Below, in pieces: positions 492 to 21,375 of a DNA stretch of 29,512 bases. A model generated the notes under the pieces. It did no database searches. It saw nothing but the letters and a program-made list of their open reading frames with translations, and was not told the origin of the DNA. Positions within the stretch are counted from its first letter, which is position 1, and every line of letters begins with the position of its first letter. Source of the DNA: a virus; the IMG/VR virus record IMGVR_UViG_3300028800_002381, positions 1 through 29,512 of that record. One strand, written 5' to 3'. Both the position numbers and the translations under genes were made by a program.

Positions 492-530
492 ACGGCTCGT
501 CAATCGAAAGGTTGACGGGCCGTTTTATTT
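492..530 (+). terminator. Rho-independent terminator
   Basis: A 12-bp stem (492-503 with 512-523, one G-U pair) has an 8-base loop and is followed by TTTTATTT. It ends the transcript carrying the two small genes and the RNA at 347-482. Its 3' arm contains the TTGACG that serves as the -35 element for the next gene. Confidence 0.85.
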
Positions 531-541
531 TGTGATATAAT
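512..541 (+). promoter_or_regulatory. Promoter of the tRNA-like gene, overlapping a terminator
   Basis: TTGACG (512-517), an 18-nt spacer and TATAAT (536-541) preceded by TGA (extended -10). The -10 box ends 7 nt before the first base of the tRNA-like gene (548). The -35 element is the 3' arm of the upstream terminator stem, so one sequence both ends one transcript and starts the next. Confidence 0.7.
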
Positions 542-547
542 TATAGT

Positions 548-617
548 GGGCCGTGATCCCTGGATGGGTGTACGTACTAAAATATAAATTGGGGTTCGAC
601 TCCCCCACGGTCCACCA
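548..617 (+). tRNA. Degenerate tRNA or tRNA-like RNA without an anticodon stem
   Basis: These 70 bases begin GGGCCGT and end ACGGTCC-A-CCA, giving a 7-bp acceptor stem with one G-U pair and an encoded CCA. A T arm follows the tRNA pattern (4 G-C pairs, loop TTCGACT), and a short D-like hairpin (CCC, loop TGGAT, GGG) contains the GG dinucleotide. The 21 bases between the D-like and T arms (569-589) cannot form a normal five-pair anticodon stem, so no anticodon can be read. It has its own promoter, and the CCA is followed by TTTT. It is either a decayed tRNA or an RNA that mimics the top half of tRNA. Confidence 0.55.
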
Positions 618-622
618 TTTTC

Positions 623-650
623 TTGACTTCGTTTGAATCAGTGATATAGT
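623..650 (+). promoter_or_regulatory. Promoter of the tmRNA gene
   Basis: TTGACT (623-628), 16-nt spacer, TATAGT (645-650) preceded by TGA. The -10 box ends 7 nt before base 1 of the tmRNA (657). A near copy of this segment recurs at 1026-1053, and about 40 bases (from GGTCCACCATTTT through GTGATAT) are shared between the two sites with few differences. Confidence 0.75.
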
Positions 651-656
651 ATTTAT

Positions 657-1019
657 GGGCCTGACCAGGTTTCGACTGGGCTCAGACGTAATGTGATGCA
701 AGCCGAGTATGTCAATTGACCTCGTTAAACCTATTGGCAAAACACAAACGACGAAGGTAACTTCGAAGAGCGTATGGCAGCCTAAGTCCCCTCGGGGATT
801 GTTAGGTTGTCGGGGTGCTGAGAACCTGGCAACAGAATCCGACAAAGGGACAACCCTGCGTCCTTTAATTAAAGGGCCGTCGCGTTGAACGGATCAAATC
901 AACGATGGTGGAGGATGCTAGGCATCCCTAGTCGCTCCGACTTTAACAGAGAGAAGCTTGTGGTGCCATGTTATTGATGTCTTCAGGACGCGGGGGGCAG
1001 CACCCCGCCAGGTCCACCA
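657..1019 (+). ncRNA. ssrA: Phage-encoded tmRNA
   Basis: This 363-nt RNA rescues stalled ribosomes by acting first as tRNA-Ala and then as a short mRNA. The 5' end GGGCCTG pairs with CAGGTCC before the terminal ACCA. The D-loop region TTTCGACTGGG and the GCAAGCCGAG block match the bacterial tmRNA pattern. Pseudoknot 1 is visible (CGAG with CTCG; GTCAAT with ATTGGC). The tag frame runs from ACA at 744 to TAA at 783-785 and encodes TNDEGNFEERMAA, with the usual small hydrophobic C-terminus. The T-arm stem is intact, but its loop reads GGCAGCA instead of a TTCAA-type loop, which is unusual. A tmRNA is also known from cluster C mycobacteriophages. No smpB gene is visible here, so host SmpB would be needed. 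Confidence 0.93.
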
Positions 1020-1025
1020 TTTTTC

Positions 1026-1053
1026 TTGACTTTGTTTGAAACAGTGATATGAT
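1026..1053 (+). promoter_or_regulatory. Promoter duplicated from the tmRNA promoter, driving a possible leaderless gene
   Basis: TTGACT (1026-1031), 16-nt spacer, TATGAT (1048-1053) preceded by TGA. With the 7-nt spacing seen at the RNA genes, transcription would start at about 1060, only 2 nt before the ATG at 1062. Confidence 0.65.
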
Positions 1054-1061
1054 ATCGCTGT

Positions 1062-1268
1062 ATGTACCAAGAAGTAAAAGATATCTTTTGTAAATACCAG
1101 ATCGATGAATGGGAAATCGTCGAACCTACCGACTTTCTTGGAGAAACAATAGTCAAAACTAAAGTCAGAAACGAAGCATTCTTGCAAGAACTTCATAATT
1201 TCGTTAATCGGAGAGCAATAGCCTTTGGAATGGAAGGGCCTTACCGGATTATTTGGGAACCTTTATAA
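1062..1268 (+). CDS. Hypothetical 68-residue protein, probably from a leaderless mRNA
   Basis: The product (MYQEVKDIF... to RIIWEPL) is acidic in its first half, with an alternating charged and hydrophobic pattern suggesting a small alpha/beta fold. No motif is recognised. No Shine-Dalgarno sequence precedes the ATG. The promoter box at 1048-1053 places the predicted 5' end at about 1060, so the message would begin almost at the start codon. It ends 4 nt before the next gene and is probably the first gene of a three-gene unit (1062-2063). Confidence 0.6.
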   Translation: MYQEVKDIFCKYQIDEWEIVEPTDFLGETIVKTKVRNEAFLQELHNFVNRRAIAFGMEGPYRIIWEPL

Positions 1269-1272
1269 ACTT

Positions 1273-1848
1273 ATGAGCGATGAATTTTACGTTAGCTATA
1301 CCAAAAACACTAAAGAGGGTGAACAATTTACCGGTTACCATTATAGAACTGGTTTTACCTCTAGAGAAGAAGCGGAACAGTGGGCCGCTATCAATAAAGA
1401 CACCATTTATTGGTATCAAATTAGCGAAACAAATCCTCGCAGTAAAAAGTCTAAAATTATGTTTGAGGGATCGTTAGAAGAAGGCTGGACAAAATATGAG
1501 GGCACTCTTCGAACACACTATGAAACTGGAATGGAGTGCCTTGGATTAACCCTACAGACGGACGAGCCCCATGGCGGTCCCAATCCTAATTTTGACTCTG
1601 AACAGCCAGAAAGTGCATCTAATTTTAAATTCTATGCATCGTACGATGCCCTTCATTTTCTTGAATATGGCAATGTTCTAGAGATTGATGGTACCAAATA
1701 TGTAATGATCAAAGATAGGGAATTTGCAAAGGCTGACGCTTATAAGTTAAGTTTCTATCCTCAAGGTTTTTCTAGAGAAGAGTTAATTTCTATTTTTATG
1801 CCAGAGAATAAGAGGGCTACTTTATATGTTAAAAAGGAAGAAAAATGA
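1273..1848 (+). CDS. Hypothetical 191-residue protein
   Basis: I place the start at the ATG at 1273, just after the preceding stop; an in-frame upstream extension would overlap the previous gene without support. The protein is rich in Tyr, Glu and Lys with no cysteine cluster or membrane segment. Residues 1-50 (MSDEFYVSYTKN..., then TSREEAEQWAA) look like a small beta-alpha unit in which an aromatic strand is followed by a helix. No family is recognised. Its stop overlaps the next start as ATGA, so translation of the two is probably coupled. Confidence 0.7.
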   Translation: MSDEFYVSYTKNTKEGEQFTGYHYRTGFTSREEAEQWAAINKDTIYWYQISETNPRSKKSKIMFEGSLEEGWTKYEGTLRTHYETGMECLGLTLQTDEPHGGPNPNFDSEQPESASNFKFYASYDALHFLEYGNVLEIDGTKYVMIKDREFAKADAYKLSFYPQGFSREELISIFMPENKRATLYVKKEEK

Positions 1849-2063
1849 TTTACGAAGTAGCCAGTGTGGCTATCGATGCGGATGGTAAATGGATCGTTAC
1901 TTATTTTGGAGATGTACCAGAACAGGGTGGTATAGAGCTAAAACGAGGCCAGCTAACATTTTTTAATGTAGAAGATGCCTGTACTTTTTTGGGACGCGAA
2001 TTAAAATCTCAAACAGGCGTATATTTAGATTTGATTAAAAAGAATAACAATGATATAAAGTAG
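1845..2063 (+). CDS. Hypothetical 72-residue protein
   Basis: The ATG overlaps the previous stop (ATGA) and is preceded by AAGGAAG. The sequence suggests a beta strand pair (YEVASVAIDADGKWIVTYFG) followed by a short helix, a small domain of unknown family. The end of the gene contains the promoter of the downstream tRNA-Ala: the -35 lies inside the coding sequence and the -10 covers its last codons. Confidence 0.65.
   Translation: MIYEVASVAIDADGKWIVTYFGDVPEQGGIELKRGQLTFFNVEDACTFLGRELKSQTGVYLDLIKKNNNDIK
2031..2059 (+). promoter_or_regulatory. Promoter of tRNA-Ala inside the end of a gene
   Basis: TTGATT (2031-2036), 17-nt spacer, TATAAA (2054-2059) preceded by TGA. The box ends 7 nt before the first base of the tRNA (2066), the same spacing as at the tRNA-like and tmRNA genes. 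Confidence 0.65.
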
Positions 2064-2065
2064 GT

Positions 2066-2141
2066 GGGCCGGTAGCTCAGTTGGGAGAGCGCTAGCTTTG
2101 CAAGCTAGAGGTCGTGGGTTCGATCCCCATCCGGTCCACCA
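2066..2141 (+). tRNA. tRNA-Ala (anticodon TGC)
   Basis: A 76-base cloverleaf with encoded CCA: acceptor GGGCCGG/CCGGTCC, D arm GCTC/GAGC, anticodon stem CTAGC/GCTAG with loop TTTGCAA (anticodon TGC), and T arm GTGGG/CCCAT (one G-U) with loop TTCGATC. The CCA is followed by TTTT. Like the tmRNA, it is charged with alanine and shares the GGGCC start and GGTCCACCA end. Confidence 0.96.
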
Positions 2142-3584: not shown

Positions 3585-3589
3585 ATAAA

Positions 3590-3634
3590 TAAAAACGGCC
3601 TACGTAACTTTTTATGTTTACATAGGCCGTTTCA
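3590..3634. terminator. Bidirectional terminator
   Basis: A 15-base stem (3593-3607 with 3618-3632) has a 10-base AT-rich loop. On the minus strand every position pairs (one G-U) and a T-rich tail TTTTTATTTAT follows, a strong terminator for the minus transcript. On the + strand one C-A mismatch remains and the tail is weaker (TTTCAGTTT). It separates the converging + gene block and the minus-strand endolysin/RNA transcript. Confidence 0.8.
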
Positions 3635-3639
3635 GTTTC

Positions 3640-4085
3640 CGGTGAGCTTTCGCAGCCCGGAGATTCAAGATGAATAGGTTGGCTATGATACCAACAGGAC
3701 TTTCTAGCTCCGCATCATCGTTGGGAGGCCGAAACCTTTGTCCCATCCCTGACACCTCATCGCCTTGACCACCTGAACGCCACCTGTATCCTGAGCGGGT
3801 CTGAGCTTCTCACGCACTCTGGCGTTTACTATTCATAACAGAATATACTGTCGTATTCGGATTTTTCTCATCCGTGTCCCGACTAACACGGCGCATGGCT
3901 AGTCCATGCACTAGATCGTTTGGAGAGCGACCCTATACTCTTGCCCTGTGAGTTCCAACTGGGCGACTTATCACCACTTTACCTTCCAGAGGGCAGGTGA
4001 CGCCCAAGATACGCTCTATCTCAGTCCACACCACCCCCAACCTATGGTCTTTCGACGGGTTGGGGGTGGTGTACGCTTATAGATA
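3640..4085 (-). ncRNA. Structured RNA on the minus strand between endolysin and terminator
   Basis: About 450 bases without a credible gene lie between the endolysin stop (4136) and the terminator. Near the 5' end is a 15-bp stem (4028-4042/4058-4072) whose inner part is GTC-GAAA-GAC on the minus strand. Other pairings are GCATGG/CCATGC (3893-3909), AACGCCA/TGGCGTT (3776-3782 with 3820-3826), CGTGT/ACACG and CGGAT/ATCCG. GAAA tetraloops appear only when read on the minus strand, and the terminator is stronger in that direction. It may be a large phage non-coding RNA or a long structured 3' UTR. I cannot assign a family. Confidence 0.45.
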
Positions 4086-4135
4086 CCCAGAGCCTCACTA
4101 TTTAGACTTTTCGCTGAGGTCGTTTCCAGGTATTG

Positions 4136-7494: not shown

Positions 7495-7506
7495 TAAGTT
7501 AAAGTT

Positions 7507-7585
7507 TGGGGCGTATCCCCTCACTCTTATAAGGTGTAGAAAGGGTAATTAGTACACGTAGGTGCAATTCCTACCGCCCCAACCA
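7507..7585 (+). tRNA. Unusual tRNA-like RNA, perhaps tRNA-Ile(TAT)-derived
   Basis: These 79 bases have a perfect 7-bp acceptor stem (TGGGGCG/CGCCCCA), T8-A9, discriminator A and encoded CCA. The T stem is perfect (GTAGG/CCTAC), but its loop is TGCAATT, not TTCAATT. A hairpin CACT-CTTATAA-GGTG could serve as an anticodon arm with anticodon TAT, but the D arm is missing and a longer insert lies after it. Alternative pairings CCCT/AGGG and GTGTA/TACAC compete with this arm. A TGA-TAAGTT box at 7492-7500 ends 7 nt before base 1, with TTGCCA 17 nt further up, and the CCA is followed by TTTT. It is a decayed tRNA or tRNA mimic. Confidence 0.45.
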
Positions 7586-7596
7586 TTTTAAAGCTA

Positions 7597-7605
7597 TGAT
7601 ATACT
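7597..7605 (+). promoter_or_regulatory. Extended -10 box ahead of a structured RNA
   Basis: TGATATACT (7597-7605), inside CTATGATATACTATAG, which closely resembles CTATGATATACATAG at the sigma-factor promoter (19348-19362). No -35 is recognisable. Transcription would start near 7612. Confidence 0.5.
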
Positions 7606-7611
7606 ATAGTT

Positions 7612-7866
7612 AAGACTTTGATTTTGGGTCGGTATTCCTAATTCGTGCCTAGAGCCGTAGAGGTAACTCCTTCCCGAAAACCTGGTGTCGGCGCGATAGA
7701 TGTAGGCCGCTTATGTGGCCACTGACCCAACAGCAAGAAAATGACTCTTAAGCAATGGGCTCTCACCCGAATGTTGATTTAGCCTAGGGGCACCAGGAAC
7801 TTTTTATTTGGGCTTCATGTGGGCAACCGCATGCGGTGGGCCTTTCATCTCACTCGACCAAAATAT
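7612..7866 (+). ncRNA. Structured RNA with a probable pseudoknot, class unknown
   Basis: About 255 bases hold no gene but several perfect helices: TTGGGTC (7624-7630) with GACCCAA (7724-7730), and CCTGGTG (7681-7687) with CACCAGG (7791-7797). These cross each other, forming a pseudoknot. Local hairpins include GAG-GTAA-CTC (7660-7669), GGCCGC-TTAT-GTGGCC (7705-7720) and CATGTGG-GCAA-CCGCATG (7816-7833), two of them capped by GNRA loops. ATTTTGG (7621-7627) can also pair with CCAAAAT (7858-7864), marking possible ends. An extended -10 box precedes it. It may be independent or the 5' part of one giant RNA reaching 8680. Confidence 0.5.
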
Positions 7867-7914
7867 TACCTCCTTGGGTAGCCCATTAGTTTTATGGAAT
7901 ATTGGAAAGAAAAA

Positions 7915-8028
7915 ATGACTTGTTTCTTTGTTGGACACTGGATTGGTAAGGTAGGACTCTTCATTCAAAATGAAGATGGCAGTACCACTGAAAAACCAGG
8001 ATGTCTTAGATGTAGAAAAGTTTTTTGA
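7915..8028 (+). CDS. Tiny Cys/His protein between two structured RNAs
   Basis: This encodes 37 residues (MTCFFVGHWIGKV... GCLRCRKVF). The layout of an N-terminal Cys and Gly-His, a short beta segment and a C-terminal CxxC is that of a minimal zinc-binding phage protein, reminiscent of DUF1660-type small proteins. The start at 7915 is preferred to an in-frame ATG 21 nt upstream because GGAAAG lies before it. The reading frame sits between two structured RNA segments. Confidence 0.5.
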   Translation: MTCFFVGHWIGKVGLFIQNEDGSTTEKPGCLRCRKVF

Positions 8029-8039
8029 ATCAGATATGA

Positions 8040-8680
8040 AAGGGTTCCACGGCGGATTAATCTAGGCGATGTCTAGACCCTCTTTCAGACCTGCACGGTG
8101 ATGCCACGTGGCGATGTGGCTAAGGACGTGCCTGAAACGGGCCTGAAATCGGTAACGCGCCGAAGGATGGTCCGTGTAGGTTTAAAGTTAGCAGGGGAGT
8201 GATTCTTACCAGCCCGTTTGATTCGGATGCCGGGTGAGATGCCGGGCTGCTAATTCGTTTTGGTAGGGGCGTCGAACTCACAATGCGGTGAGGGAAAGCA
8301 CGGGTCACTCGTGGCCTGCGGGAATATGCTAACGAGGTCTGGCTGGGAACTTTGATTGCAATCATCGTAACCCGAGATACGCAGTGCCCCGCGTCGGAAT
8401 TAAGCAGCCGATCTACCAATTAATTTCAGTCACGTAATTGAACGCCACTGTTCTGTGGCGCAGATGAAAAGATCGGGTAGAGCACGTGACGATAACCCGA
8501 TCACTCTTACCTGTGTATGTTGACAGGTTTGGCGGCGGCGCGGGAAGCTGTATACGGGGCCATTAGCTATTAAGGCTATCCGTCTAGAGACGCGCAAGAG
8601 AGAAAACTCTGCTCACACCAACTCTAACGTGGAGAAGGGTCAGACAAGTGAGATGGCCGGATTCGCGCCCGGCCCGCCAT
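8040..8680 (+). ncRNA. Large structured non-coding RNA of about 640 nt
   Basis: This stretch has no gene, is GC-rich and is full of long-range complementarity. A three-part stem joins TTTCAG/CTGAAA, GCACG/CGTGC and GCCAC/GTGGC (8083-8137). TTAGCAG pairs with CTGCTAA (8188-8194/8247-8253), CTCAC with GTGAG, CGCCAC with GTGGCG, ACCTGT with ACAGGT (8509-8528) and GGCCGG with CCGGCC (8655-8674). GATCGGGT/ACCCGATC (8471-8502) carries in its loop ACGTGAC, which matches GTCACGT at 8429-8435 and forms a 7-bp pseudoknot. The 3' end GCCA is followed by TTTTATT. Size, tRNA-rich phage context and fold density recall the GOLLD and ROOL classes, but I cannot confirm either. Confidence 0.55.
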
Positions 8681-8704
8681 TTTATTATTTAAAATAAGGA
8701 ATAT

Positions 8705-9048: not shown

Positions 9049-9816
9049 TTATGCCGCCCTTTGAGCTAAATAGGCGTCAAAGCCTTCTTCTTTATATTTA
9101 ATATTTCCAGCTTTATCGAAACCGAATCCACGGGACAAATAAACCAAAGTGCAGCGACAATGAGGGTGTAATCCAAATGCGGAGGGAGCGTCTTCGCCGC
9201 GTTTATGGTACGACTGCTTCAGCTCTGATAGTTTCCAAATGCGCGGGGTAACCTGGTCTGGCATTAGATGCAAACGAATGCATTCCTTGCATGTTACGTT
9301 GTCTTTAATTACTACAAAAAATACAGACGGATCTTCATCACCTATGGATGCGGATACTGCAGTAATGTCCATCATTGTGCCCAAATTGCGTAATTTGGTA
9401 CTTTCATATTCAGCAATGGCTTCTAAATTGCTTTTAGCCTTTTTAAATTCTTCATTTACAATAGCGTCTATTTCTTCTTTTTCTATTTTACGCTTTTGAA
9501 GTTTTGATTCCCTAGCCAATCCATCTAATCTCTCTGTGATGTTGGACATAGTTTTATGTTTTAAAGATTCAATATGCCCATGGGAAGTAGTGAGCAAACT
9601 CTTTAGGACACCCCTTTCAATGGAATTAGGGGTTTTATTTTTCATTGCCTGGACAAATAAATTGGCCAGGCCGAGATTAGGAGAGGCAGAAATAACAAGT
9701 CTTTTCTTGTCTTGAAGTTTAGGAATATCGCCTATAAGCTGTAAGGCGATATTATCAAAGATATCCTCTACAATCTTATTGAGAGATTCTTTTCCTATAG
9801 AGGAGATCCCGTACAT
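9049..9816 (-). CDS. Head morphogenesis protein, Mu gpF-like
   Basis: The 255-residue protein ends in the signature of phage Mu gpF / SPP1 gp7-type minor head proteins: C176-x2-C179 followed by RLHLMPD, then GLHPHCRCTLVY with His219, Cys220 and Cys222. The first 140 residues are charged and helical. Proteins of this family bind the portal and help head assembly, and some are carried into the virion. It is the last gene of the minus-strand head module, directly downstream of the low-complexity protein and the portal, the usual order. Confidence 0.85.
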   Translation of the reverse strand: MYGISSIGKESLNKIVEDIFDNIALQLIGDIPKLQDKKRLVISASPNLGLANLFVQAMKNKTPNSIERGVLKSLLTTSHGHIESLKHKTMSNITERLDGLARESKLQKRKIEKEEIDAIVNEEFKKAKSNLEAIAEYESTKLRNLGTMMDITAVSASIGDEDPSVFFVVIKDNVTCKECIRLHLMPDQVTPRIWKLSELKQSYHKRGEDAPSAFGLHPHCRCTLVYLSRGFGFDKAGNIKYKEEGFDAYLAQRAA

Positions 9817-15405: not shown

Positions 15406-17178
15406 TCAGGCGCGATTGTTGGCCTCGTTAACAAACTGATTTGGATCTTCCGTAGCTCGCATGTATTCTGAATCTGCACGTGCTTCGGAGCGCTCAAAAA
15501 CATCATCTCTGGGATAACAAACGAGTCCTCCGCATGTTCCTAGAACAGAAGCAATGCTTACCGCATTACTAAGCGATTCTGCCACCGCCTTAGTGGCATC
15601 AAAAACACCAACCTCTTCTGCTTTGCCATATTTTTGATTTTCTACATCATAAACTACATCGGGAGACTCTATAAGTCTACTAATTACATTTTCAATTTCA
15701 TCGGAATTGTAACCCGCATTATCTAGTAATTTTTCAGGAAGAGCTAGTAGTGAAGGCGCCAATACATCCCTGATAGGATTTCCTTCCGAATATTCTTGCA
15801 GCAGCTTAACGGCCAAGTCAATAGCTAGCCTACATCCGCCCGGAACCGCCCCGTGAGCAATGGCCGATCTAACTGCACACACGGCGTCTTCGCATCGATC
15901 GTGAGCTTCCTTGAGTTCACCATTGGAACCACCGTATATGGTGAGCTTTGCAATGCCATTGGTAATTTTGCCCAGACGTTCATCGAGAAGAATTTTTTCT
16001 GCCTGACTTTCTGCATTCAATTTCATAGTTTTTAATTCTTCTGCTCTCACCTCAACATTCACTGGTTCTGGGTTTCCAATAACCGTAGAACGAAATCGAT
16101 ATGCTTCGAAGCTATCCATTCCACGACCCAAATCGTCTAGGGTTGCAGTATTTATCTGGTCTTTTAGGCCAAAAACTTTAGCTCCAGTAAATGCACCAAG
16201 ATCGTATAAAAAATGGGTTTCACTATTTAGAAATTGTGCCCTAAAAGTAATCATCGGAAGCACATTCATTGTATTTGGATTAGAAAAATTAAATGCTAAT
16301 TGCGTGAGAACATTTTCACTAAATCCATGGGCTACAATAACAAGATTTTTGTAATCACTGTTCCCTTCTTCAATATATTTCTTGCCCAATGCCTCCATAA
16401 GTGGCATAAATGCAATTAAGTCGTTTACATTGCCATCATAGAGGAGAAATAGCGGCTTTTCTAGATAACATCTTTGATTAGCCTGATCATTAATAAATGC
16501 AGTATGTAATTTGCCAATCGATTCCTCAAATCCAACTGGAATTGGGAAACCATCAATTCTTTCTACTTCGTAATGTTTTTTTCCACTTAGTTCACGAATA
16601 GTTACATGTGACGCGTCTCCGTACCCTATCTCTTCGAATGCCTTTATAACCGCATCCGCCATGTCAGAATCGCCGTTGGCGCTGATCTGTGCCACCATCT
16701 TCAGAATGTCTTTGTTGTCCTCATCTACCGGAATGCTTCTAGAATGGATATAGGGAAGTAATATTTGCTCAGTTACTTTAGTAATTTCTCGTGCAGCTTT
16801 TTGAGGACTATATTTTGGATTTTTTTCACAAAATTCAAATAGATTCTTTATAATATTATACGCTAGAAGTGTAGCGGTAGTAGTTCCATCACCGGCTTCG
16901 GTTGCCGTACGCTGTGCGGTATCACGTGCCGATTCGATAATGAGATGTTCATAGGGATCTCGTGCGCCTAAAGATTTGAAAATGGTCACTCCGTCTTTAG
17001 TAAGTTTGTTTGGAAGACCTGGGTAGTCAGATTCGATCAATGTCACCTTACCTCCGGGGCCAAGGGACGATCCCACAATGTCAGATACTCTTTGCATAGT
17101 GCTAAGTACCTTATTTTTAAGAAATTCTTTGTTGCATTCAAACATTTTGGATGAATCTTTAGCTTTTCGATGGGCCAC
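15406..17178 (-). CDS. GroEL-like chaperonin, divergent phage type
   Basis: The 590-residue protein (GroEL is 548) keeps the equatorial ATPase signatures: SLGPGGKVTLIE (38-49), TKDGVTI with Asp62, AGDGTTTATLL with Asp97, CEDAVCAVRSAIAHGAVPGG (matching the GroEL block with the hydrolysis Asp398), and VFDATKAVAESLSNAVSIAS near the end. The apical region is highly divergent, and the C-terminus lacks the GGM repeats. It should form a ring that folds phage proteins, perhaps capsid subunits, given its place at the head of the structural module. The start codon is GTG with AGGAG 6 nt upstream. No GroES-like gene lies in the window. Phage GroEL homologues are known from Pseudomonas phage EL. Confidence 0.93.
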   Translation of the reverse strand: MAHRKAKDSSKMFECNKEFLKNKVLSTMQRVSDIVGSSLGPGGKVTLIESDYPGLPNKLTKDGVTIFKSLGARDPYEHLIIESARDTAQRTATEAGDGTTTATLLAYNIIKNLFEFCEKNPKYSPQKAAREITKVTEQILLPYIHSRSIPVDEDNKDILKMVAQISANGDSDMADAVIKAFEEIGYGDASHVTIRELSGKKHYEVERIDGFPIPVGFEESIGKLHTAFINDQANQRCYLEKPLFLLYDGNVNDLIAFMPLMEALGKKYIEEGNSDYKNLVIVAHGFSENVLTQLAFNFSNPNTMNVLPMITFRAQFLNSETHFLYDLGAFTGAKVFGLKDQINTATLDDLGRGMDSFEAYRFRSTVIGNPEPVNVEVRAEELKTMKLNAESQAEKILLDERLGKITNGIAKLTIYGGSNGELKEAHDRCEDAVCAVRSAIAHGAVPGGCRLAIDLAVKLLQEYSEGNPIRDVLAPSLLALPEKLLDNAGYNSDEIENVISRLIESPDVVYDVENQKYGKAEEVGVFDATKAVAESLSNAVSIASVLGTCGGLVCYPRDDVFERSEARADSEYMRATEDPNQFVNEANNRA

Positions 17179-19366: not shown

Positions 19367-20401
19367 ATGGGAAAGTCCAACAAACGTTTTGAATTTGATA
19401 GTAGTTTTTATGTCCTGGCTGGCGAAATTACTAGGGCCCTAGAAGAAAATAAAAAAGACGGTACTACTCAACAAGAACAAGTTGAAGAGTTGCTGGATGC
19501 TGAGAACAAATTCAAATTACACATAATGAAATACAAAGCTTCTACTTGGGTTTACGAGGCTTTTTGGCAGAAAGTGTGTATTGAAAATAAAAATATTTTA
19601 AGTGCGCGTCCATATTTTCGTGAATCGGCCATCACATTTAGTAAAAAAATTACCCCCGCCATTAAAGCTACAGATATTGAGACGTTAAAAACATTTAATG
19701 TTAATTATCAACTTATTAAATTTATAAAAGATAACTGGAAAGGTAAATGGGATGATAAAATGGAAAAACTTTTCCAGCGCGTATTTGTAGCGCGTACAAA
19801 ACTTATTCAGAATAACATGCCCTTAGCTGTTAATCGTGCAAAACTTTTTTATAGAAAAACTCCAAAAAGTCATTTAACTCTTATAGACATGATTGGCATT
19901 TGCGCCATGGGGTTGGCTGCGGGTGTTGACAAATGGAATGGTCCCTATTCTCCTGTATTTCGCTCAGTTTGCATCGGCCGTATGGTTGGAAACCTCATAG
20001 ACTCATATTCAGAAACGATGCTTCATTTTTACCCCAGTGACAAAAGGATATTGTATAAAGCACATACTTTACGTAGTCGTAAAAGTATTGATGATGTAAA
20101 AGAGCTTACTGAAGCCGTAAAAGATGCCTTTAAAGAAGATGCTAAAGAAGGCAAGAGCATTCCTAAAAATAAGATCGACGTGGGCGAACTTAGTTCATTA
20201 ATGCAAGCAGCCAGCATTGTTAGTGCGGATGCCACAGTAAATGACGAAGGTTTTGGTGTTTATAGCTTCACAGTAGATGAGAAACAAGATATTGAACAGG
20301 AATATGTAGACAAAGAAGCTACCGACAAAATGTTGGAATTAGCAAAAAAGCTTCCCGTGTTATATAGAAAAGTATTGCGTTTAAAAGGCGTCAAGATATA
20401 A
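19367..20401 (+). CDS. Sigma-70-like factor lacking the region 4.2 helix-turn-helix
   Basis: The 344-residue protein resembles a sigma factor. Residues 149-215 fit region 2, which binds core RNA polymerase and the -10 element: NNMPLAVNRAKLFYRK, then LTLIDMIGICAMGLAAGVDKW, then FRSVCIGRMVGNLID. Region 3 probably spans about 220-300. At the C-terminus AKKLPVLYRKVLRLKG (326-341) looks like region 4.1, but the protein stops at 344, before the helix-turn-helix that reads the -35. About 110 N-terminal residues are of unknown fold. It should redirect host polymerase to phage promoters with extended -10 boxes. The predicted message is leaderless; an AGGA lies only 3 nt from the ATG, too close for a normal ribosome-binding site. 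Confidence 0.75.
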   Translation: MGKSNKRFEFDSSFYVLAGEITRALEENKKDGTTQQEQVEELLDAENKFKLHIMKYKASTWVYEAFWQKVCIENKNILSARPYFRESAITFSKKITPAIKATDIETLKTFNVNYQLIKFIKDNWKGKWDDKMEKLFQRVFVARTKLIQNNMPLAVNRAKLFYRKTPKSHLTLIDMIGICAMGLAAGVDKWNGPYSPVFRSVCIGRMVGNLIDSYSETMLHFYPSDKRILYKAHTLRSRKSIDDVKELTEAVKDAFKEDAKEGKSIPKNKIDVGELSSLMQAASIVSADATVNDEGFGVYSFTVDEKQDIEQEYVDKEATDKMLELAKKLPVLYRKVLRLKGVKI

Positions 20402-20411
20402 TGGAGATACT

Positions 20412-20774
20412 ATGAAACTTGGTGAAATTGACGACTGTTTAATCTACCTTAACGCCACTTCTTCTCTTAACAATCGATTGATTGTTGAGAAGTATGTAAA
20501 GGGCGAAATTCGTGCTAAAGAACGAAATGGTTTTGCCTTAATTGATCAGAAAACCCAAGTTAAAGGGCTAAAAATTCTAGCAGACGCTATTTTGAATAAC
20601 AATGTTTTGATTCGTAAGGGTTCCACTGCCTATATTAAGGAAGAGGCGCTTCACACTGCTGCTTGGGCACAAAAAGCCCTAGAATCTGATGCTATTTCTG
20701 TTCCTTTCCTAATTGTTGATTTGTCCCAAGTAGAGTTCATTAAACCCCATAAAGTTGGGTCGGAGAATGACTAA
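20412..20774 (+). CDS. Hypothetical 120-residue protein
   Basis: A good ribosome-binding site (GGAGAT) stands before the ATG, 10 nt after the sigma-like gene, so the two are probably co-transcribed. The sequence alternates helices and strands (LGEIDDCLIYLNATSSLNNR, later LKILADAILNNNVLIRKG) and ends in a beta segment (FLIVDLSQVEFIKP). No motif is recognised. A role beside the sigma factor (co-activator or anti-sigma) is possible from position alone. Confidence 0.65.
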   Translation: MKLGEIDDCLIYLNATSSLNNRLIVEKYVKGEIRAKERNGFALIDQKTQVKGLKILADAILNNNVLIRKGSTAYIKEEALHTAAWAQKALESDAISVPFLIVDLSQVEFIKPHKVGSEND

Positions 20775-21375
20775 AGTTTGTACCAAATGTAGTAAAGCTA
20801 AATTGTTGAATGAATTTAATAAAGATAGAACTAAATCTGATGGATTTTATTCTAGTTGCAGGCTGTGTAACTCTAATAGAAAATCATATTTTGATAATCG
20901 AAAAAAGCTTAAAGCAGAATATGATAGTAATATTTATGAAATTCAAAAGGATGAAAAGAAAATCTACTCTAAGGCCTATTATCAAAATAACAAGAAACGT
21001 GTAAATGCTTATTATGTAGAAAAAGGAAAGACTGATATCAATTTCAAGCTAAAAAGTATTCTTAGAAAAAGAATAGCAAAGTTGGTATCCGGTCATACCA
21101 AGGCTGGTTCTGCAGTATCCGATCTAGGTTGTACTGTCAGTGAATTCAAATCATATTTAGAGTCCTTATTTAAATCTGGCATGAGCTGGAGCAATTATGG
21201 GTTTGGCTCAGGCAAATGGCAGATTGATCACATAGAAGCGCTAATGTTTTTCAATTTACAAAACCGAAAAGAGTTTTTGAAGGCTGCTAATTATAAAAAT
21301 TTGCAACCCATTTGGCACGAAGAACATTTGACTAAAACCAAAAAGGATTTAAAAAAATACCATGCTAATCCTTAG
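20767..21375 (+). CDS. HNH endonuclease with N-terminal zinc ribbon
   Basis: The 202-residue protein (ATG at 20767) begins with two CxxC pairs (Cys5/Cys8 and Cys31/Cys34), a zinc-ribbon DNA-binding part, followed by a long basic helical region. The HNH nuclease motif is WQIDHIEAL (Asp154-His155), NYKNLQPIW (Asn178) and HEEH (184-187). This is the form of free-standing phage homing endonucleases. It overlaps both neighbours (8 and 14 nt), as though inserted into a compact operon between the hypothetical gene and the SbcD-like gene. Confidence 0.88.
   Translation: MTKVCTKCSKAKLLNEFNKDRTKSDGFYSSCRLCNSNRKSYFDNRKKLKAEYDSNIYEIQKDEKKIYSKAYYQNNKKRVNAYYVEKGKTDINFKLKSILRKRIAKLVSGHTKAGSAVSDLGCTVSEFKSYLESLFKSGMSWSNYGFGSGKWQIDHIEALMFFNLQNRKEFLKAANYKNLQPIWHEEHLTKTKKDLKKYHANP

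Follow-up and report, generated by a model that had tools for sequence, protein, structure and literature searches.

The window analysed here, the whole 29,512-nucleotide (nt) stretch of IMG/VR virus record IMGVR_UViG_3300028800_002381, comes from a tailed phage of soil or water; this 29.5-kb fragment encodes portal, terminase, GroEL and SbcCD-like proteins. It carries four genes for tRNA-type RNAs, each with a promoter close upstream. An earlier reading made from the letters alone (the sequence-only reading) had described three of them, at 548, 657 and 2066, as cassettes of promoter, exact RNA and T-run that would yield mature RNA without RNase P or 3' trimming. The genes and their promoters are as follows.

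512-541, + strand: promoter of RNA548; TTGACG (512-517), 18-nt spacer, extended -10 TGATATAAT = TG-A-TATAAT (533-541); sigma70 rank 1 of 58,944
548-617, + strand: RNA548, a tRNA-like RNA by its fold, with an 8-bp acceptor containing G3:U70, a T arm and CCA, and without an anticodon arm
623-650, + strand: promoter of the transfer-messenger RNA (tmRNA); TTGACT (623-628), 16-nt spacer, extended -10 TGATATAGT = TG-A-TATAGT (642-650); sigma70 rank 3
657-1019, + strand: tmRNA; Rfam RF00023, 83.6 bits against a gathering score of 47, full model
2031-2059, + strand: promoter of tRNA-Ala; TTGATT (2031-2036), 17-nt spacer, TGATATAAA = TG-A-TATAAA (2051-2059); sigma70 rank 114
2066-2141, + strand: tRNA-Ala(UGC) with encoded CCA, called by ARAGORN; Rfam 70.5 bits
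7472-7500, + strand: promoter of RNA7507; TTGCCA, 17-nt spacer, TGATAAGTT = TG-A-TAAGTT ending at 7500; sigma70 rank 33
7507-7585, + strand: RNA7507, tRNA-like with CCA; Rfam tRNA 28.1 bits, just below the cut-off of 29; fold z -2.37

At all four genes the last nucleotide of the -10 box stands exactly at position -7 relative to base 1 of the RNA, as the sequence-only reading had noted for the first three. The nucleotides between the extended -10 and the first base are TATAGT before G548, ATTTAT before G657 and GTAGGT before G2066. The claimed TTG-type -35 at 16-18 nt was likewise found (spacers of 18, 16 and 17 nt at 548, 657 and 2066), and the encoded CCA is followed by TTTT, TTTTT and TTTT at these genes and by TTTT at 7507. 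The tRNA-Ala promoter overlaps the 3' end of the open reading frame (ORF) at 1845-2063. The promoter ranks come from a scan of 58,944 positions on both window strands with generic Escherichia coli sigma70 weights, which were unfitted, and they depend on these weights. When the four upstream regions were shuffled, four boxes at 6-8 nt never occurred in 200 rounds (mean 0.135, maximum 2). The hexamer TGATAT itself was not enriched in the window, with 25 copies found and 24.0 expected; the earlier estimate of about 14 by chance was too low, and the earlier view that the fixed spacing, not the frequency of the hexamer, bears the argument was borne out.

The tmRNA scores over the RF00023 gathering score, has an in-frame tag that ends in ...NTNDEGNFEERMAA-stop when translated, and has an alanine-type acceptor with G3:U70. 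Since the tmRNA at 657-1019 is complete, a match to a permuted tmRNA across 562-785 (36.1 bits, with 47 needed) was discounted. An odd 9-nt T-loop replacing UUCGAUU is common to the tmRNAs of two distant phages, at 657-1019 of the window and at 20576-20973 of relative G034 (GGGCAGCAC / GGGCGGTAC); that of the tmRNA in G035 is canonical. RNA548 folded into acceptor, D-like and T hairpins only, with a canonical T loop and no anticodon arm as in a cloverleaf. ARAGORN did not call it, its Rfam match to tRNA-Sec was weak (22.8 bits), and a structure scan of 1.45 Mb (window and relatives) found no similar elements. G3:U70 and A73, the alanine identity marks, are common to RNA548, the tmRNA and tRNA-Ala, which places three RNAs of alanine type inside 1.6 kb.

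The spacing recurred in relatives of the phage. A terminase search gave 35 loci on contigs of up to 177 kb; the best match to a named phage was Myxococcus phage Mx1, whose terminase is 32.9% identical over 89%. RNA genes were searched for in 37 relatives, and the best sigma70-like -10 within 100 nt upstream of each gene was recorded. The gene set comprised 58 genes from relatives (56 Rfam tRNA hits and 2 tmRNAs over the cut-off), 29 from Mx1 and the 4 of the window; seven sub-threshold tmRNA rows were excluded, five of which overlap tRNA genes already counted as tRNAs. Among isolated or first RNA genes of the relatives the -10 lay at 6-8 nt in 12 of 35, a count not reached in any of 200 shuffle rounds (mean 0.97), in a test that counts exact best positions and includes weak boxes. 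The peak was sharp, and distances of 9-14 nt were empty for isolated genes. Array-internal genes showed the spacing in 1 of 23 cases (equalled in 89 of 200 shuffle rounds), and the 29 tRNA genes of Mx1, which have mixed spacing, no encoded CCA and no box, in none. The constant distance that would set the start at base 1 was found at all four window genes (7 nt) and at 12 of the 35 (6-8 nt). In the phages searched, all three tmRNAs over the Rfam cut-off (window, G034 and G035) have the -10 at 7 or 8 nt, and tRNA-Met genes of other phages also show the spacing. Three genes beyond the counted set have the box at 7 nt: a tRNA-Ala at 9629 of G031 and a tRNA-Met at 107282 of G011, both called by ARAGORN, and an Ala-type gene at 118575 of G011, which was found through the box motif and reported by neither Rfam nor ARAGORN. 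The steadiest case is tRNA-Ala: TGATATA starts 14, 15 or (in G010) 18 nt upstream in all eight Ala-type genes (window, G001, G010, G011, G012, G017, G031 and a phage contig in G038). Across the relatives the -35 and the discriminator vary, and the box and its spacing persist.

The box is also enriched as a motif. Across eight phages that have the arrangement, intergenic regions contained TGATATAnT 16 times against 1.4 expected, whereas the other three TGnTATAnT variants were found 4 times against 9.2 expected; the bias was weaker in other members of the clade (15 against 5.6 expected). When the sites were read outward, many lay before tRNAs, tRNA-like RNAs or noncoding blocks and some at the starts of long ORFs, and others, within coding sequence, seem to be chance occurrences. 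Several sites flagged automatically as coding fall under spurious ORFs over RNA genes (for example, 533 and 642 of the window). At four sites the TGA of the extended -10 is apparently also the stop codon of an upstream DNA ligase-like ORF (G031 6371, minus strand; G015 34840, plus strand; G036 16731, minus strand; G037 19776, plus strand); those in G031 and G015 stand before tRNA-Met. Among the 29 pairs of box and ATG within 60 nt of each other, 7 had the box 5-9 nt before the ATG of a long ORF, as expected for leaderless mRNAs. Starting transcripts at the first useful base thus seems to be a general habit in these phages, and TGATATAnT plus 6 nt gives a simple rule for finding hidden RNA genes in them. 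Further sites of this kind in the window are the following.

1026-1053, + strand: promoter of the same type, a near-copy downstream of the tmRNA; TTGACT, 16-nt spacer, TGATATGAT; rank 4; predicted start at 1060, 2 nt before the ATG at 1062
1062-1268, + strand: 68-amino-acid ORF with a predicted, nearly leaderless mRNA
7597-7605, + strand: TGATATACT box, which precedes a noncoding block at about 7612-7900 that has a relative in G001

A start of transcription at the mature 5' end is likely at the four RNA genes, and base 1, to within about 1 nt, is well supported as the predicted start. A T before a purine is the preferred start, and T at -1 with a purine at +1 after a gap of 6 nt is usual. All 16 genes that were picked for carrying or fitting the box have T at -1; for such a set, column counts are descriptive only. 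In Streptomyces lividans the measured mean gap from -10 to start is 6.3 nt (PMC8079986), and by this measure transcripts of the window genes would start at base 1. Leaders measured elsewhere are longer than the one predicted here: E. coli has 2-52 nt (PMC10731613), and in Burkholderia cenocepacia tRNA leaders measure 5-127 nt and the tmRNA leader 11 nt (PMC4603805).

The strongest challenge to this comes from the proposal that these are ordinary short-leader genes, with a start 1-5 nt upstream, trimming by host RNase P and a close promoter that reflects compact packing. We regard it as unlikely. In its favour, leaders of E. coli tRNAs can be as short as 2 nt (PMC10731613), several window genes have a purine at -2 or -3, and compact packing is seen where the TGA of the box ends an upstream ORF before tRNA-Met. 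Short leaders are at odds, however, with the sharp peak at 6-8 nt beside the empty distances of 9-14 nt, and with the usual start after a 6-nt gap and the measured mean.

Several other observations weigh against a start at base 1, or limit how far it can be extended. The T at -1 is a weak, non-discriminating sign because RNase P also favours U at -1. Since the spacing ranges from 6 to 8 nt, some transcripts could begin at base 2 or at -1. Readthrough from RNA548, which is separated from the tmRNA by a 39-nt gap with no terminator, would give some tmRNA that needs RNase P. Because some tRNA-Ala promoters are plainly homologous, with upstream sequence common to several of them (G012, G017 and G031), the tRNA-Ala cases are not independent. 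Seven tRNA genes of additional relatives, examined later, gave a mixed picture, three with the best -10 at 6-8 nt and four without; only one of the three had a good score (9.6, in G039), the others scoring 2.9 and 4.1. Finally, 23 of the 35 isolated or first genes of the relatives are without the spacing. The sequence-only reading had looked to the relatives' RNA genes for a box at 7 nt, and this expectation held for 12 of 35 isolated or first genes and failed for these 23, for 22 of 23 array members and for all 29 genes of Mx1. The cassette design is therefore a property of particular genes and is not genome-wide. A claim for the whole family is ruled out by Mx1 together with the isolated tRNAs of other relatives that have no box, and arrayed tRNAs without promoters of their own in G010, G011, G012 and G015 leave RNase P substrates in phages that have the design.

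Could the fixed spacing be a trace of copying, in which one promoter-RNA cassette was duplicated and the spacing has no function? The tmRNA gene is bracketed by imperfect direct repeats, which suggests cassette duplication.

599-652, + strand: 54-nt direct repeat, left copy, spanning an RNA 3' end, a T-run and a promoter; 76% identical to the right copy, spacing 403
1002-1055, + strand: right copy

The acceptor sequences of RNA548, the tmRNA and tRNA-Ala are also alike (GGGCC / GGUCCACCA). Against copying, the promoters at 2066 and 7507 have only the box in common, relatives keep box and spacing while -35 and discriminator differ, and the spacing is also seen at tRNA-Met and tmRNA genes of other phages. 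We therefore hold copying alone to be very improbable.

The 3' ends tell a different story from the 5' ends. Of 16 adjacent tRNA pairs in relatives, 5 have CCA-TTTT(T) between the two genes, and their linkers, 5-9 nt long, are too short for a promoter; the polymerase must pass the T-run there, because the next tRNA has no promoter. A terminator scan, which did detect the hairpin at 489-526, found no intrinsic terminator (G+C-rich hairpin plus U-run) at 617, 1019, 2141 or 7585. The T-run is also inconstant at box-bearing genes of relatives, where it is often AGTTT, AATTT or CTTATTT. In the window, a structured noncoding RNA follows tRNA-Ala directly.

2142-2425, + strand: structured noncoding RNA directly 3' of tRNA-Ala; fold z -2.15; core conserved in G031 and G001 by alignment

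The promoter scan found no promoter-like site on the + strand of 2060-2262, and no Rfam family matched this RNA at E values up to 5. Termination in the T-run after CCA was rejected on the array readthrough, the conserved promoterless RNA after tRNA-Ala and the lack of hairpins, and a stop in the T-run is unlikely. A model in which transcription both starts at base 1 and stops in the T-run, giving a primary transcript identical to the mature RNA, is hardly credible on these data, even though CCA runs into TTTT or TTTTT at each of the four window genes and CCATTTT occurs somewhat more often in the window than expected (17 found, 9.7 expected; 3 of 100 shuffles as high). Of the claim that mature RNA would arise without RNase P or 3' trimming, the part about the start thus stands as a prediction, and the part about the stop falls; 3' trimming is probably still needed, and the T-rich linkers may be 3' processing sites.

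Taken together, our preferred explanation, to which we assign a probability of roughly 0.6, is that single RNA genes carry their own strong extended -10 promoter (TGATATAnT, with a TTGA-type -35 in the window), spaced so that transcription begins at base 1 or at most one base away. Three of the RNAs (tRNA-Ala, tmRNA and RNA548), and probably RNA7507 as well, would then be leaderless, with a 5' triphosphate and a 5' end that does not need RNase P. On the 3' side the short T-run would not act as a stop; the polymerase probably continues, as from tRNA-Ala into the conserved noncoding RNA, and host 3' nucleases may expose the encoded CCA end at AU-rich linkers. The box, its spacing, its recurrence in relatives, the enrichment of the motif and the clash between T-run and array structure are observed; we infer the exact start, the triphosphate, the polymerase used and the benefit to the phage. 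The design could serve as a quick, processing-light supply of a few translation-related RNAs; it would not be an escape from RNase P as such, because the same phages keep arrayed tRNAs that need cutting.

Bacterial tRNAs are all taken to require RNase P for their 5' ends. A literature search confined to open-licence papers found no example of a leaderless tRNA in bacteria or phages, and within that literature the arrangement appears to be undescribed in bacteria. The known precedent is archaeal: in Nanoarchaeum equitans all tRNAs are leaderless, promoters lie 26-27 nt upstream, the tRNAs have 5' triphosphates and RNase P is missing (PMC10100707, PMC10941002). As there, a fixed promoter distance is predicted here to place the start at tRNA base 1, and the 5' triphosphates demonstrated in N. 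equitans are predicted for the phage. Unlike N. equitans, with its archaeal promoter at all tRNAs, the phage has a bacterial-type -10 at 7 nt at certain genes only, and other tRNAs are arrayed. By this analogy, the phage case would work like N. equitans at the 5' end, and it is not a full member of the Nanoarchaeum type because the arrays in the same phages still need cutting. Single tRNA genes of bacteria (E. coli, PMC10731613; B. cenocepacia, PMC4603805) resemble the phage genes in having their own sigma70-type promoter close by, but their leader is removed by RNase P, whereas the phage leader is predicted to be 0, within about 1 nt. The tRNA arrays of G010, G011, G012 and G015 are also tRNAs on large phages; their members, by contrast, are without the box and depend on cleavage of a shared transcript. 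The leaderless mRNAs of S. lividans, reported as 17% of primary starts, have, like the phage genes, a -10 placed about 7 nt ahead of the gene's first base (PMC8079986); they are protein-coding, whereas the phage case concerns stable RNAs plus some mRNAs. If phages do begin tRNA and tmRNA precisely at base 1, they would provide a natural setting in which to ask whether these RNAs function in bacteria with a triphosphate end, and for what reason a phage might bypass processing by its host. The claim is sharp and cheap to test.

A bolder version must be called doubtful. TGATATAnT would be a dedicated promoter class of the clade, perhaps with a phage sigma factor (ORF 19367-20398), driving leaderless tRNA-Ala, tRNA-Met, tmRNA, the anticodon-less alanine-type RNA and several noncoding RNAs; their 5'-triphosphate products would remain at hand if host RNase P ran short or was shut down during infection, forming an RNase P-independent branch of tRNA supply in bacteria. 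The product of ORF 19367-20398 is 33% identical to an Mx1 protein annotated as a putative sigma factor, which itself matches Sigma70_r2 only below the cut-off (E 9e-4); the window protein gave no match to Sigma70_r2. No RNase P RNA of class A and no SmpB gene was found in 21 phage records each; the host would supply its own RNase P, which is presumably present.

Searches for the host and for further copies gave little. The sole terminase relative in the genome-contig database was a 129-kb contig binned with a Saprospiraceae metagenome-assembled genome; because Bacteroidota use a different -10, we took this assignment to be a binning error. The exact tRNA-Ala core had no match in the genome-contig database, the exact 25-nt promoter pattern none in the viral-contig database, and the window tmRNA none among the phages searched. 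Annotations of Mx1 at 42500-65000 include a TROVE-domain protein, a peptidyl-tRNA hydrolase and an RNA ligase amid its 29 tRNAs, hinting at wider RNA handling in this phage group.

Other features of the window are given below.

340-531, + strand: structured noncoding RNA (folding energy -76.9 kcal/mol, z -5.78, equalled by none of 200 shuffles) that includes a strong intrinsic terminator, made of the hairpin at 489-526 and a T-run
15406-17178: phage-encoded GroEL chaperonin

The RNA at 340-531 had no Rfam match, and the 3' arm of its terminator contains the -35 of RNA548. More G+C-rich noncoding blocks lie at 3590-4130, 7612-7900 and 8030-8685, and parts of the tested stretches 3585-4135, 7495-7910 and 7990-8700 recur in G001 or G019. 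The block at 8030-8685 ends in ...CGCCA-TTTT, like the tRNA-type genes.

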